From Bacteroidales bacterium (lineage in GTDB: Bacteria; Bacteroidota; Bacteroidia; Bacteroidales; UBA932), in NCBI GenBank assembly GCA_017438975.1, contig JAFRUH010000031.1, positions 45,326 to 109,325 on the forward strand: a stretch of DNA of 64,000 bases, read 5' to 3'. Both the position numbers and the translations under genes were made by a program. Of this stretch, positions 5,910-44,624 are shown piece by piece. Numbering within the stretch: position 1 is the first letter of the stretch; each line of letters opens with the position of its first letter. The notes below the pieces were generated by a model. The model saw nothing but the letters and a program-made list of their open reading frames with translations. It was not told the origin of the DNA and did not search any database.

Positions 5910-7568
5910 TTATCCGACAAACTGCTTCTTGAGAAGTTCGATCTTTTCAGGAGCGTCGGAGCCATGGGCGCCGAAATAGAACTTGATCTTCGGTTCGGTG
6001 CCGGACGGCCGGACGGAAACTACGTCCCCGTCTTCGTTGAAGAACTGCAGGACATTGGACTTCGGAAGCCCGGTCTTTTCAGGCTCGAGATAGTCGATGA
6101 CCTTGACAACCTTGCGGCCTGCGATTTCCGCCGGCGGGGTCGTGCGGTAATCGGTCATGATCCGGGCGATCTCTTCGGCGCCGGTCTTGCCCTTCCGGAC
6201 GATATAGACCATCTTCTCGAGGTAGAGGCCGTACTCCTTGTAGATCTTCTGCAGCAGCTGGTACAGGGTCATTCCCTGTTCCGCGGCCCAGGCGGCACAC
6301 TCTGCGACCATCGCGCAGGAAACCTGGGCGCACTTGTCACGGACGAACTGGCCGATGTTGAAGCCATAGCTTTCCTCGCCTCCGCAGATGAATTCGCCGT
6401 CGTTTTCATGGGCCTTGACGACCTCGGCGATGTACTTGAATCCCGTGAGGACATTGTAGCATCTGACTCCGAAGGATTCGCAGATCGCGGCGATCAGTTC
6501 GGTGGTGACGATCGTCTTGACGCAGTATTTGGTTGCGTCGAGTTTTCCGAGCTCTTTCCAACGTGTCAGGATGTAGTAGGTCAGCATCGAGGCGGTCTGG
6601 TTCCCGTTGAACTGGACCATTTTCCCTTCGTCGTTCCGGACGGCGATGCCGAGACGGTCCGCATCCGGGTCCGTGGCCATCACGATATCCGCGCCGGTTT
6701 CGTCGGCTTTTTCAAGGGCCATCTTCATCGCCGCTGGCTCCTCCGGGTTGGGGGAGACGACGGTCGGGAAGTCTCCGTCGCTGATGTCCTGGTCGGGAAC
6801 ATGGATGACATTCTTGAAGCCGAGCCTGCGCAGGGCTTCGGGAACGAGACGGACGCCGCAGCCGTGGAGCGGAGTATAGACGATCTTGATGTCGGGATGC
6901 TTCGCGACGGCTTCGGGGGTCAGCATCAGGGAGAGGATGTCCCGGAGGTACATCTCGTCCATCTCCTTGCCCATCAGTTCGATTCCGCCGATCTCATCGC
7001 CTTCCTCGAAACGGACCTCGGACGGATCGCTGATTTTTCCGACTTCGGCGACGATATCCTTGTCGACGGGCGCCGTGATCTGTCCTCCGTCGCTCCAGAA
7101 GACCTTGTACCCGTTGTATTCCTTGGGGTTGTGGCTCGCCGTGATCATGATGCCGGCGGTCGCTCCCTTGGCCCGGATGCTGTAGCTGAGTTCCGGGGTC
7201 GGCCGGATGTTGTCGAACAGGTAGACGTGGATGCCGTTGTTGGATAGGACTTCGGCGGAGATCTTCGCGAAGAGCTTGCTGTTGTTCCGGCTGTCATAGG
7301 AGATGCAGACGCTCCGGGGGCCTTCGACATGGTCCTTGATGTAGTTCGCAAGGCCCTGGGTCGCCATTCCGACCGTGTATTTGTTCATCCGGTTGGTCCC
7401 TACGCCCATGATTCCCCGGAGTCCTCCGGTACCGAATTCGAGATTGCGGTAGAACGCATCCTCGAACGCGGCGGGATCATTGTTCCTCAGTGCGATGACC
7501 TGGCACTTGGTTTCGGGGTCGAAATTCCCTTCGATCCACCCCTTTGCAACTTCCTGATAATCTTTCAT
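5910..7568 (-). CDS. Phosphoglucomutase/phosphomannomutase (phospho-sugar mutase)
   Basis: 552 aa from the ATG at 7568 (MKDYQEVAKGWIEG); the frame is open further upstream but that extension has no homologous look and lies before a typical start. Alpha-D-phosphohexomutase signatures are clear: the phosphoserine loop TASHNPKEYNGYKVF near residue 140, the metal loop DPDADR near residue 300, the sugar-binding GGEESYGF and the C-terminal phosphate-binding RPSGTEPKIKFYF. Length fits the PgcA/PGM2-like branch, which interconverts glucose-1- and glucose-6-phosphate. First gene of a two-gene unit with the AGCS symporter; a weak -7-like box (TATCTTCG, minus strand) lies at 7600-7607. Confidence 0.92.
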   Translation of the reverse strand: MKDYQEVAKGWIEGNFDPETKCQVIALRNNDPAAFEDAFYRNLEFGTGGLRGIMGVGTNRMNKYTVGMATQGLANYIKDHVEGPRSVCISYDSRNNSKLFAKISAEVLSNNGIHVYLFDNIRPTPELSYSIRAKGATAGIMITASHNPKEYNGYKVFWSDGGQITAPVDKDIVAEVGKISDPSEVRFEEGDEIGGIELMGKEMDEMYLRDILSLMLTPEAVAKHPDIKIVYTPLHGCGVRLVPEALRRLGFKNVIHVPDQDISDGDFPTVVSPNPEEPAAMKMALEKADETGADIVMATDPDADRLGIAVRNDEGKMVQFNGNQTASMLTYYILTRWKELGKLDATKYCVKTIVTTELIAAICESFGVRCYNVLTGFKYIAEVVKAHENDGEFICGGEESYGFNIGQFVRDKCAQVSCAMVAECAAWAAEQGMTLYQLLQKIYKEYGLYLEKMVYIVRKGKTGAEEIARIMTDYRTTPPAEIAGRKVVKVIDYLEPEKTGLPKSNVLQFFNEDGDVVSVRPSGTEPKIKFYFGAHGSDAPEKIELLKKQFVG

Positions 7569-7664
7569 ATTGGTTAGTATTATTAGTCGTTCGATTTTAC
7601 GAAGATACAACTTTCCTGTGAAAAATGAAAATGAAACAACTGTCTCATCCTCAAGAAAAATGCG

Positions 7665-7672
7665 TACTTTTG
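7665..7672 (+). promoter_or_regulatory. -7 box TACTTTTG, immediately before the methyltransferase ATG
   Basis: Exact match to TAnnTTTG. It ends four bases before the ATG at 7677, so the expected transcript start coincides with or nearly touches the start codon. No clear TTTG -33 box at the usual spacing. Confidence 0.55.
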
Positions 7673-7676
7673 TACT

Positions 7677-9029
7677 ATGGGGACATTCGATGATTTCATT
7701 CTCTCCCATGAAGGGGATGATCCGGCCCGTCTGCTGCTTTCGCGCGGACGGTTCCCCGACGTGGATATGGACCTGGCGGTCACGACGATCGAGGCGCGGC
7801 GGAAGCTCCGGACCAAGGTTCCGGAGTGGTATGCCGTCCCTTCGCTGCGTTATCCGAAGGTGCTTCCGGCGGAGCAGTGTTCCTCCTCGGAGACCGCCCG
7901 ATATAAAGCCCGGCTCGCCGCCCGGTTTTGGGAGGGTGTTCCCTCCGGAACCCATGGCCACCCTCGGCCGTGTAAGAGGGAGGGGCCCTTCGGGAGGGGT
8001 CGCGAAGCGACGGTTCACGAGGGAACACCCTCCCAAAACGAATGGGAAGGTGAGCCGGGCGCTCGGATTGCAGACCTGACGGGAGGACTCGGGGTCGACA
8101 GCCAGGCTTTCTCGGAAGTGTTCGGGAAGGTGCTTTACAACGAGATGGACCCGACTCTCGCAAAAGCGGCGGAGTATAATTTCAAGGCACTAGGAATCAA
8201 TAACATAGAAGTCCTGAATTACTGCCTTTCTTCAGCTGGCGGAGAGGGGGTCTCCGTCGGAGAAATCCTCGGCGGTTTCTCTCCGGATGTCCTCTATCTC
8301 GACCCTGCCAGAAGGGCCTCGGACGGAAGGAAAGTATTCCTCATCGAAGACTGCCGGCCGGATGTCCTCGGCCTCCTTCCCGATCTTTTCGCAGCCTGCC
8401 GGTTCATCCTGTTGAAACTCTCCCCGATGGCGGATATCTCGATGGCTGCGGAGCGTCTCTCGCACGTGCGGGAGGTCCATGCCGTCGCTTCAGGCGGGGA
8501 ATGCAAGGAACTGCTCTTCGTGCTGGACCGGGACTGGGAAGGGGAGTATGCCATCATCGCGGCGGAGTCAGGGGCGACTTTCCGTTTCCTGCCCTCCGGG
8601 GAGAAGGGCGCCGCCGCCCGCCTGGCCGATCATCCCGAGGTGCTTGGGAGCTGCCGCTATCTTTATGAACCCGGCAAGGCGCTCCTCAAGTCCGGAGCCT
8701 TCCGTCTCCTATCGGAACGCTTCGGAATGATCAAAGCAGGTAATCACACGCATCTCTATCTGACTGAGGAAGTTCCGGAGGAACTGAAACCGCTCGGAAA
8801 GACCTTCGGAATCCTGGAGGTCCAGCCTTTGGCCAGCCACATGCTGAAGACGGTCGGGAAGCGATGGCCCCGTGCCGAAGTCACGGCCAGGAACGTTCCG
8901 CTCACCTCCGAAGTGCTTCGTAGAAAGATGGGTTGCGCGTCCGGCGGTGACATCCATATCTTCGGCGTCCGGTTTGACTTCCGGTCCGGATCCTCAGAGA
9001 ATAAACTGCTGATTACCAAAGTGTTGTAG
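7677..9029 (+). CDS. Class I SAM-dependent methyltransferase with THUMP-like domain, carrying an in-frame repeat insertion
   Basis: 450 aa. The core resembles Bacteroidota THUMP-like methyltransferases: an N-terminal helical part ending in SSSETARYKA, the SAM-binding motif I ADLTGGLGVDS, a motif IV-like VLYLDPARR, and a C-terminal THUMP-like region. These proteins are presumed RNA methyltransferases; the target is not known. Between ARYKARLAARF and GARIADLTGG about 47 residues of low-complexity, Pro/Gly/Arg-rich sequence correspond to a 115-bp palindromic element (7925-8039) and its flanks. Reading frame is preserved, so the gene may still work. Without the insert the protein would be about 400 aa. 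The -7 box placement implies a leaderless mRNA. Confidence 0.8.
   Translation: MGTFDDFILSHEGDDPARLLLSRGRFPDVDMDLAVTTIEARRKLRTKVPEWYAVPSLRYPKVLPAEQCSSSETARYKARLAARFWEGVPSGTHGHPRPCKREGPFGRGREATVHEGTPSQNEWEGEPGARIADLTGGLGVDSQAFSEVFGKVLYNEMDPTLAKAAEYNFKALGINNIEVLNYCLSSAGGEGVSVGEILGGFSPDVLYLDPARRASDGRKVFLIEDCRPDVLGLLPDLFAACRFILLKLSPMADISMAAERLSHVREVHAVASGGECKELLFVLDRDWEGEYAIIAAESGATFRFLPSGEKGAAARLADHPEVLGSCRYLYEPGKALLKSGAFRLLSERFGMIKAGNHTHLYLTEEVPEELKPLGKTFGILEVQPLASHMLKTVGKRWPRAEVTARNVPLTSEVLRRKMGCASGGDIHIFGVRFDFRSGSSENKLLITKVL
7925..8039. repeat. 115-bp palindromic (MITE/REP-like) element inside a coding sequence
   Basis: Perfect 21-bp terminal inverted repeat: 7925-7945 (GTTTTGGGAGGGTGTTCCCT plus C) pairs with 8019-8039. 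Inside, GAACC (7948-7952) can pair with GGTTC (8012-8016) and a smaller hairpin GTCGC-gaa-GCGAC lies at 7999-8011. No transposase and no clear target-site duplication. The element is read through in the methyltransferase frame. Confidence 0.75.
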
Positions 9030-44183: not shown

Positions 44184-44624
44184 TCATTGTCCGAGTTCGT
44201 GGATAATCCGCTGCATGCGGCGCCTGCAGGCGTCTTCGGGAGCGGTGAGTACATAGAAGAGAAGCGCTGCGATGCAGAGGCAACAGGGAAGCCTCCACCA
44301 GGAGCCGAAAAAGGCCAGGATGGAGGCGATCAGGATAAATGAGACGGACCAGCTGACGATGCGTCCGGTACGGGAAAGGCTGTTCCCTTCGCGGAAAGAG
44401 GCTGCGAACCCTTCTCCGGAAGGCTCTACGCGGGCCGTGATGAAACGGTTGCGCCAGGCGCCGGAGGCGTCGAGGACCGCAGAGTCCTCTCCTTCCCGGC
44501 GGACGGTTCCGCCCTCCTTGCCCATTTCCGTCATGACCTTGTTGAGCGCCCCCGGAAGGCCGCCTTCCGCGTTGAACCGTACGGTTCCGCTGTCCATCAT
44601 CTTGACTTGCTTTTGCGGATTCAT
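44184..44624 (-). CDS. Hypothetical membrane protein
   Basis: 146 aa. A soluble N-terminal half (RFNAEGGLPGALNKVMTEMG) is followed by two adjacent hydrophobic segments (WSVSFILIASILAFFGSWW and LPCCLCIAALLFYVLTA) and a basic tail. I do not recognise the family. It is immediately upstream of the CBM9-like gene on the same strand with a one-base gap, so coexpressed. Confidence 0.65.
   Translation of the reverse strand: MNPQKQVKMMDSGTVRFNAEGGLPGALNKVMTEMGKEGGTVRREGEDSAVLDASGAWRNRFITARVEPSGEGFAASFREGNSLSRTGRIVSWSVSFILIASILAFFGSWWRLPCCLCIAALLFYVLTAPEDACRRRMQRIIHELGQ

Follow-up and report, generated by a model that had tools for sequence, protein, structure and literature searches.

A dispersed palindromic element of a Bacteroidales genus is read in frame in a methyltransferase gene and has a core that is inverted between related species

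The Rickettsia palindromic elements (RPE; Ogata et al. 2000, 2002, as related in the available parts of PMC10969869 and PMC6649704) are multi-copy palindromes of ~100-150 bp that insert in frame in unrelated housekeeping genes, where the protein tolerates them. The same parts of these papers describe a single conserved peptide frame (PMC10969869, PMC6649704) and repeats that lose their identity with time (PMC6649704), and protein-coding palindromes are described there as a Rickettsia speciality. REP and TIR repeats, found with RAYT or TIRYT transposases, are palindromes that lie mostly 3' of genes, in convergent or codirectional gaps (excerpts of PMC3733652 and PMC6006769). REPs inside genes of other bacteria are mentioned (PMC3733652, in part), and a TnpA-REP subclass of Bacteroidetes, 2.6, is flanked by atypical structures that have copies elsewhere in the genome (PMC6006769, in part). 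A third group is linked to template switching. In yeast, polymerase switching between inverted repeats makes the arms alike and can turn the spacer around, and ten such inverted spacers are given for coding sequence (PMC8604942, in the portion available). In RNA hairpins, loop inversions and multi-base compensatory changes have the same cause (PMC8794818, likewise). Coding palindromes of Nematomorpha mitochondria also belong here (PMC6649704, likewise).

We found a palindromic element that works like an RPE yet is a distinct, core-inverting variant. Compared with the RPE, from their descriptions rather than by sequence alignment, it belongs to another phylum and has a conserved, inverting core between arms that are usually private to each copy. 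Its arms are kept complementary where RPE arms decay (PMC6649704, as far as available), and it is open in five frames and found in both orientations, in contrast to the one RPE peptide frame. Like the REPs, it lies mostly next to gene 3' ends, in convergent or codirectional gaps, and has some copies within genes; candidate RAYT-like genes occur in its genus. In contrast to REPs, it is longer, has a multi-hairpin core, lacks a GTAG/CGTC foot and does not flank the RAYT-like genes of its genome. It also differs from a MITE of a DDE insertion sequence: no target-site duplication was seen, and there is no fixed shared terminal inverted repeat, the terminal arms being usually private and common only in one burst of copies (in genome G016, below). 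It shares arms that stay complementary with the yeast, RNA and Nematomorpha cases, and spacer or loop inversion, also in coding sequence, with the first two. Those cases, as presented in the available text, are single, short and local, whereas here the inverting unit is a conserved core, at least ~60 nt long, of a dispersed family. A search of a limited literature collection brought up no description of a comparable element, either from this genus or from coding genes of Bacteroidales. The new part is the mode of evolution: a conserved core that inverts while the arms are kept matching.

We confirmed that a 115-bp palindrome in the window (the whole 64-kb stretch of DNA that was analyzed) is read through in frame in a PG_1098-type methyltransferase gene (Table 1). 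The original prediction had described a unit with a perfect 21-bp terminal inverted repeat. The arms are in fact 28 nt long, 93% complementary and 59 nt apart, and their outer 21 bp pair perfectly. A 20-mer of the arm occurs at just these two places in the window (chance expectation, 0.01). Among the 22 inverted-repeat pairs of at least 24 nt in the window, the arms are close together only in this element, with one exception, an overlapping 25-nt palindrome (76%) at 44208-44245. A direct-repeat scan of the 64-kb window found nothing related to the element. Folding of the element gave z-scores of -6.3 as DNA and -6.2 as RNA, and none of 200 shuffles folded equally well. Beyond the arms, the outer 12-nt repeat may belong to the flank or extend the palindrome. 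Within the core, pairing of the CCCTC loop with GAGGG (7976-7980) is a possible pseudoknot, and compensated variants of the two are found in other copies (CCCGC/GCGGG in L135, CCCGT/ACGGG in the truB copy).

Table 1. Coordinates of the element in the window and of its host gene
Feature	Position	Strand	Basis or remarks
Host gene, PG_1098-family methyltransferase-like protein, 450 aa	7677..9029	+	ORF, Pfam, PDB 3ll7, fold match
Outer 12-nt repeat, imperfect	7908..7919	+	Inverted-repeat analysis; pairs with 8049-8060 (92%)
Palindromic element, 115 bp	7925..8039	+	Core orientation is that of the gene; covariance model recovers G000:C30:53253-53362
Left arm, 28 nt, outer 21 perfect	7925..7952	+	Inverted-repeat analysis
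Conserved, invertible core, 59 nt	7953..8011	+	Copy alignments; inverted at 10/21 shared sites elsewhere
Core hairpin CATGGCC-ACCCTC-GGCCGTG	7953..7972	+	Loop CCCTC at 7961-7965
Core hairpin CCC-TTC-GGG, length varies among copies	7986..7994	+	Copy alignments
Core hairpin GTCGC-GAA-GCGAC	7999..8011	+	Copy alignments, covariation, folding
Right arm, reverse complement of left arm	8012..8039	+	Inverted-repeat analysis

The 450-aa frame is open through the whole element, as had been predicted. The protein matches PF22013 and PF18096 above cut-off, and its nearest solved structure, PDB 3ll7 (PG_1098; E 1.6e-50 by sequence), is also the best fold match of its predicted model. That is, both Pfam domains and fold place it among PG_1098-type methyltransferases; NCBIfam has no model for it. 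Residues 80 and 127 align to 3ll7 chain residues 90 and 93, leaving about 44-46 extra residues, close to the loop of ~47 residues with flanks that had been proposed; just two residues of 3ll7 stand in place of residues 81-126. In the predicted model (7 aligned sequences, mean pLDDT 81), residues 87-127 have pLDDT below 50 and form an unstructured loop between a helix (71-85) and a strand (130-133), which supports the suggestion that a surface loop tolerates the insert. Among 20 distinct orthologues from the first relatives compared, three have the element (G000, which is the genome of the window, G003 and G019), one has another insert (G010) and 16 have no comparable insert, so the extra residues are not a shared feature of homologues. 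At 31 loci for this site, a non-random set in which the best-aligning hits are included, the element is present in 13, four in the orientation of the gene and nine in the opposite one. An open antisense frame crosses the element on the minus strand (5910-8036) and joins the neighboring minus-strand gene, so that ORF calling can carry that gene (708 aa) on through the element.

The window copy is one member of a dispersed family of palindromic elements of its Bacteroidales genus, probably Candidatus Cryptobacteroides (the name of two of eight named relatives, the others being named only Bacteroidia or Bacteroidales). A DNA search of its own genome gave 34 matches, two of which were the arms of the window copy matched crosswise. 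A covariance model built from 57 copies found 32 copies in this genome and 34 in that of the closest relative (G111). Thus, the possibility that the segment has no other genomic copy falls. The model matched at least once in 178 of the 200 genus genomes, at most 18 candidates being scored in each. In a sample of 295 genomes from the order, the model matched six: the genome of the window, one weak match in the genus (G246) and four others, that is, only 4 of 293 genomes beyond the genus. On reading, the core was confirmed in G524 (same family) and in G576 and G606 (other families); it was not confirmed in G426 (L242) or in the weak genus match (L243). A plain DNA search matched none of 16 genomes from other genera.

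The copies share a conserved core of ~60-75 nt between two complementary arms of ~20-30 bp. Three hairpins make up the core: one with a CCCTC loop, followed by GAGGG; a CCC..GGG hairpin, the length of which varies; and GTCGC-GAA-GCGAC. The arms usually differ among copies, yet they pair within each copy. All 26 arm pairs covary in 57 aligned copies, which were chosen from 76 catalogued copies that the finder had taken because they were armed. Over the whole structure, 94.3% of cells are paired, compared to 72% after shuffling and 38-48% after sliding. In 50 of the 57 copies, 1198 of 1272 arm cells are Watson-Crick pairs, and the rest are 31 G-T, 13 A-C and 30 other. By the finder, 15 of 90 loci are armless (L024, L093, L101, L102, L104-L109, L111-L113, L120, L131). 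When these were rescanned (L120 and L131 excepted), L093 had no core motif and the best ungapped arm of the others was similar to that of shuffled controls. Most of the armless loci belong to the burst in G016, the arms of which have a bulge and mismatches. In seven loci (L026, L028, L030, L086, L117, L137, L141), the CCC..GGG stem of the core contains an extra long hairpin, as if another palindrome were nested there.

We compared the 34 copies of the closest relative to the corresponding stretches of the window's genome. Twenty-three could be mapped, and 11 lay outside the compared stretches. Eleven of the mapped copies had the same core orientation in both species, nine were inverted and three were scored as absent. 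One of these three is the truB copy, which has an inverted variant core and is in frame in both species; with it reclassified as inverted, there are 21 shared sites, 10 of them inverted. These inversions come from a comparison of MAG assemblies, with one orientation per site. Four shared copies are in genes (PG_1098-type, RsmH, the HisD fusion and TruB), and of these the TruB copy alone is inverted; at the window's site, the core has the same orientation in both species. Orthologous cores differed by 3.0 of 57 nt and those at inverted sites by 3.4, compared to 9.0 for paralogues (19 sites; none of 2000 permutations gave a value as low). The cores therefore turn in place, with no swapping between copies.

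The arms diverge much more than the cores, by a mean of 36% at 20 sites, a figure to which some arms cut short by the arm finder contribute. At alignable sites, 105 pair cells had changed on both sides and were still Watson-Crick (some of them register shifts from changes in length), 30 had changed on one side and 233 were unchanged. Arm length had changed at 7 of 11 sites inspected by hand, at all seven equally in both arms. Substitutions at the 11 sites were found in both arms 29 times and in one arm 31 times, with some of the latter stemming from independent alignments of diverged arms. At the window's site, the closest relative has the same T-to-G change at arm position 4 on both sides, plus one one-sided change.

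Some copies are present in only one of the two species. The copy in trmB is absent from the closest relative, and both of its arms are missing along with the core. Conversely, the window's genome lacks the relative's copy in a Mur ligase gene, again with both arms, and lacks one intergenic copy, the arms missing with the core. The original prediction spoke of a mobile stem-loop. Sites that are empty or oppositely oriented in another species, including the trmB and Mur ligase sites, bear out the variation that this implies, and mobility itself would be the explanation for that variation. Three features went beyond what had been predicted: the mostly intergenic location of the copies, next to gene 3' ends; the different ways in which arms and core evolve; and the inversion of the core.

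Based on these comparisons, we consider it probable that this is a dispersed family in which hairpin template switching, or an equivalent recombination, inverts the core in place and changes the arms together. A polymerase that switches templates between the arms of an extruded hairpin would copy one arm onto the other. The same switching could turn the spacer, here the core, around, in which case inversion and concerted arm change would be by-products of one process. Recombination between the arms might have equivalent effects. Within genes, selection would retain those outcomes that leave the frame open. Template switching leaves the conservation of the core unexplained.

With less support, RAYT-like HUH transposases may move the element in trans as a single-stranded hairpin and thereby spread new copies. 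Three proteins of ~300 aa in the window's genome match NF047646 at 44.6, 35.3 and 31.6 bits, below the cut-off of 80. By sequence, they resemble REP-associated tyrosine transposases and are candidates for the mover of the element. PF01797 is found in 143 of 200 genomes of the genus. It is present in 139 of 178 genomes that have the element and in 4 of 20 that do not (198 of the 200 genomes were typed, two without a model match being left out; Fisher P 4e-7, ignoring kinship), and 39 of the 178 element-bearing genomes have no match to it. The median number of element copies was 11 with PF01797 and 2 without it, counts being capped at 18. The link of RAYT-like transposases to spread is thus a correlation only, across related genomes. 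RAYT genes are usually flanked by REPs. In the window's genome, none of the three RAYT-like genes has an element on both sides. One is ~0.3 kb from the copy inside trmB. For the other two, the nearest copy on the contig lies ~12 kb away, and no element-like inverted repeat lies beside them. As for other marks of transposition, 63 of 75 copies had no abutting direct repeat of at least 2 nt, and a GTAG/CGTC foot was beside the hairpin in 10 of 75 copies, compared to 12 in control windows.

One genome, G016, contains a burst. Of its 18 examined copies (among L094-L113 and L131), 14 are near-identical although located at different places: they have a common core and common arms, which repeat one bulge and one set of mismatches, and some also share extra flank. 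The shared imperfect arms indicate that arms travel with the element and that perfect pairing is not required of young copies. In two related copies (L103, L110) the arms match better, which implies no direction of change.

We also asked where the copies lie, using a catalogue of 76 copies (loci of seven genomes and a few more) and a rough gene caller. Nineteen copies are in coding frames, 30 in codirectional, 16 in convergent and 3 in divergent gaps, and 8 are unclear; ~31, 6 and 12 would be expected in the three kinds of gap from 280 intergenic gaps (chi-square P 2e-5). It is possible, if unlikely, that the element is a structured RNA, such as a terminator, an mRNA stabilizer or a cis-regulator, that is kept by RNA pairing and for which mobility and inversion are incidental. 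Such a role would fit the avoidance of divergent gaps, the location of 43 of the 57 non-coding copies within 30 bp of a gene 3' end, the conserved core with covarying stems, the RNA folding score, and a weak excess of G-T over A-C on the core strand (31:13, P 0.01). However, the orientation of the core is random relative to the gene (10 same and 11 opposite in codirectional gaps, 7 and 8 in coding sequences), and the core inverts between species. Read on the sense strand, the mismatch types gave no support to an RNA element: G-T and A-C numbered 16 and 19, so an RNA-sense signature is absent. Twelve loci had no match in Rfam 15 at gathering score, the best being chance miRNA models below it. 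Copies found in frame inside genes also argue against this explanation.

Five of the six frames of the element are stop-free, and the 19 in-frame copies use all five, 10 in the orientation of the gene and 9 against it; in this set L077 duplicates L076 (identical flanks), and for L116 and L076/L077 the true start codon may lie downstream of the copy. The five open frames indicate that the element can sit in frame in surface loops of housekeeping proteins in either orientation. Host genes backed by Pfam are MraW/RsmH, a histidinol dehydrogenase-aminotransferase fusion, Methyltransf_4 (TrmB-type), DHQ synthase (AroB), FAD synthetase-riboflavin kinase (RibF), Radical_SAM_N (YgiQ-type, in two species), Ala_racemase_N, a glycosyltransferase, TruB in three species and one Mur ligase. 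The insert is absent from the solved RsmH and DHQ synthase structures. The predicted parallel with RPE thus extends to a multi-copy family that is in frame in unrelated genes. In the fusion (L027; G000:C23, ~105-107 kb), histidinol dehydrogenase and a HisC-like aminotransferase are joined in an 820-aa frame, and the element copy lies between the domains.

A further idea, and a rather doubtful one, is that the in-frame copies are DNA switches. Here hairpin-driven inversion of the core would supply alternative loops in housekeeping enzymes, and the conserved core would itself be functional, either for spread as ssDNA or as a binding site that works in two orientations. Opposite orientations of the core are found in truB between the two species and in the PG_1098-type gene across the genus.

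It is quite improbable that a dedicated site-specific recombinase inverts the core at its ends (GAAACC/GGTTTC) as a phase-variation switch. The proportion of shared cores that are inverted would agree with this, as would the inner ends of the arms, which are conserved in many copies (column 26/129 is C-G in 56 of 57). Past these few bases, though, the arms differ among copies, and a conservative site-specific recombinase does not predict concerted change of the arms. Our search for recombinase candidates covered PF01797 alone.

We regard it as highly unlikely that the inversions are artefacts of short-read MAG assembly. All of the sequences are draft assemblies, and the arms are inverted repeats of 20-30 bp. 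Against this, the inverted truB copy also has paired changes in both arms and keeps its frame open, and inverted cores retain variants specific to their sites. In addition, ordinary reads can span elements of ~115-150 bp.

Least credible is that the arms come from the target, with the core entering existing hairpins or copying its flank as an inverted duplication: near-identical cores with unrelated arms occur in the window's genome (L009, L010, L016, L019), but the making of arms at each insertion was rejected in view of the sister-species empty sites that lack both arms, of orthologous arms that diverge together in place, and of the arms shared among the G016 burst copies.

With a core that inverts in place by template switching as the preferred reading, the family offers unusual material. 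Its host genus is abundant in the gut and uncultured, copies number in the tens per genome, and hundreds of species can be compared. The family makes separable the spread of palindromes and the upkeep of their pairing, which are usually seen together. Because arm lengths change in pairs and the core inverts often, it lends itself to the study of template switching in bacteria, and also of how enzymes such as TruB, RsmH or AroB absorb a loop of ~40-60 residues that can be replaced at one stroke. There is also a hazard for annotation, as the translated repeats resemble conserved peptides. The THGHPRPCKREGP-type segments of PG_1098-type, TruB or RsmH proteins are predicted translations of the element.

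Other inserts were seen near the same sites. In several species (loci L143-L147, L151, L152), a different insert occupies the PG_1098 site, between YKA and ADLTGG. Its motifs include SAQNAL...KC or AKNAG...QKRG, and it seems to be a further palindromic family that uses this hotspot. CHSERSEG/CHSERSEES peptides, from a gagcgaagcga-type repeat, occur at the PG_1098 hotspot (L160) and beside the element copy in ribF of G019 (L081). In the same genome (L075; G019:C5), the PG_1098-type gene contains one copy of the element and a second copy immediately precedes this gene, the two within ~0.4 kb.
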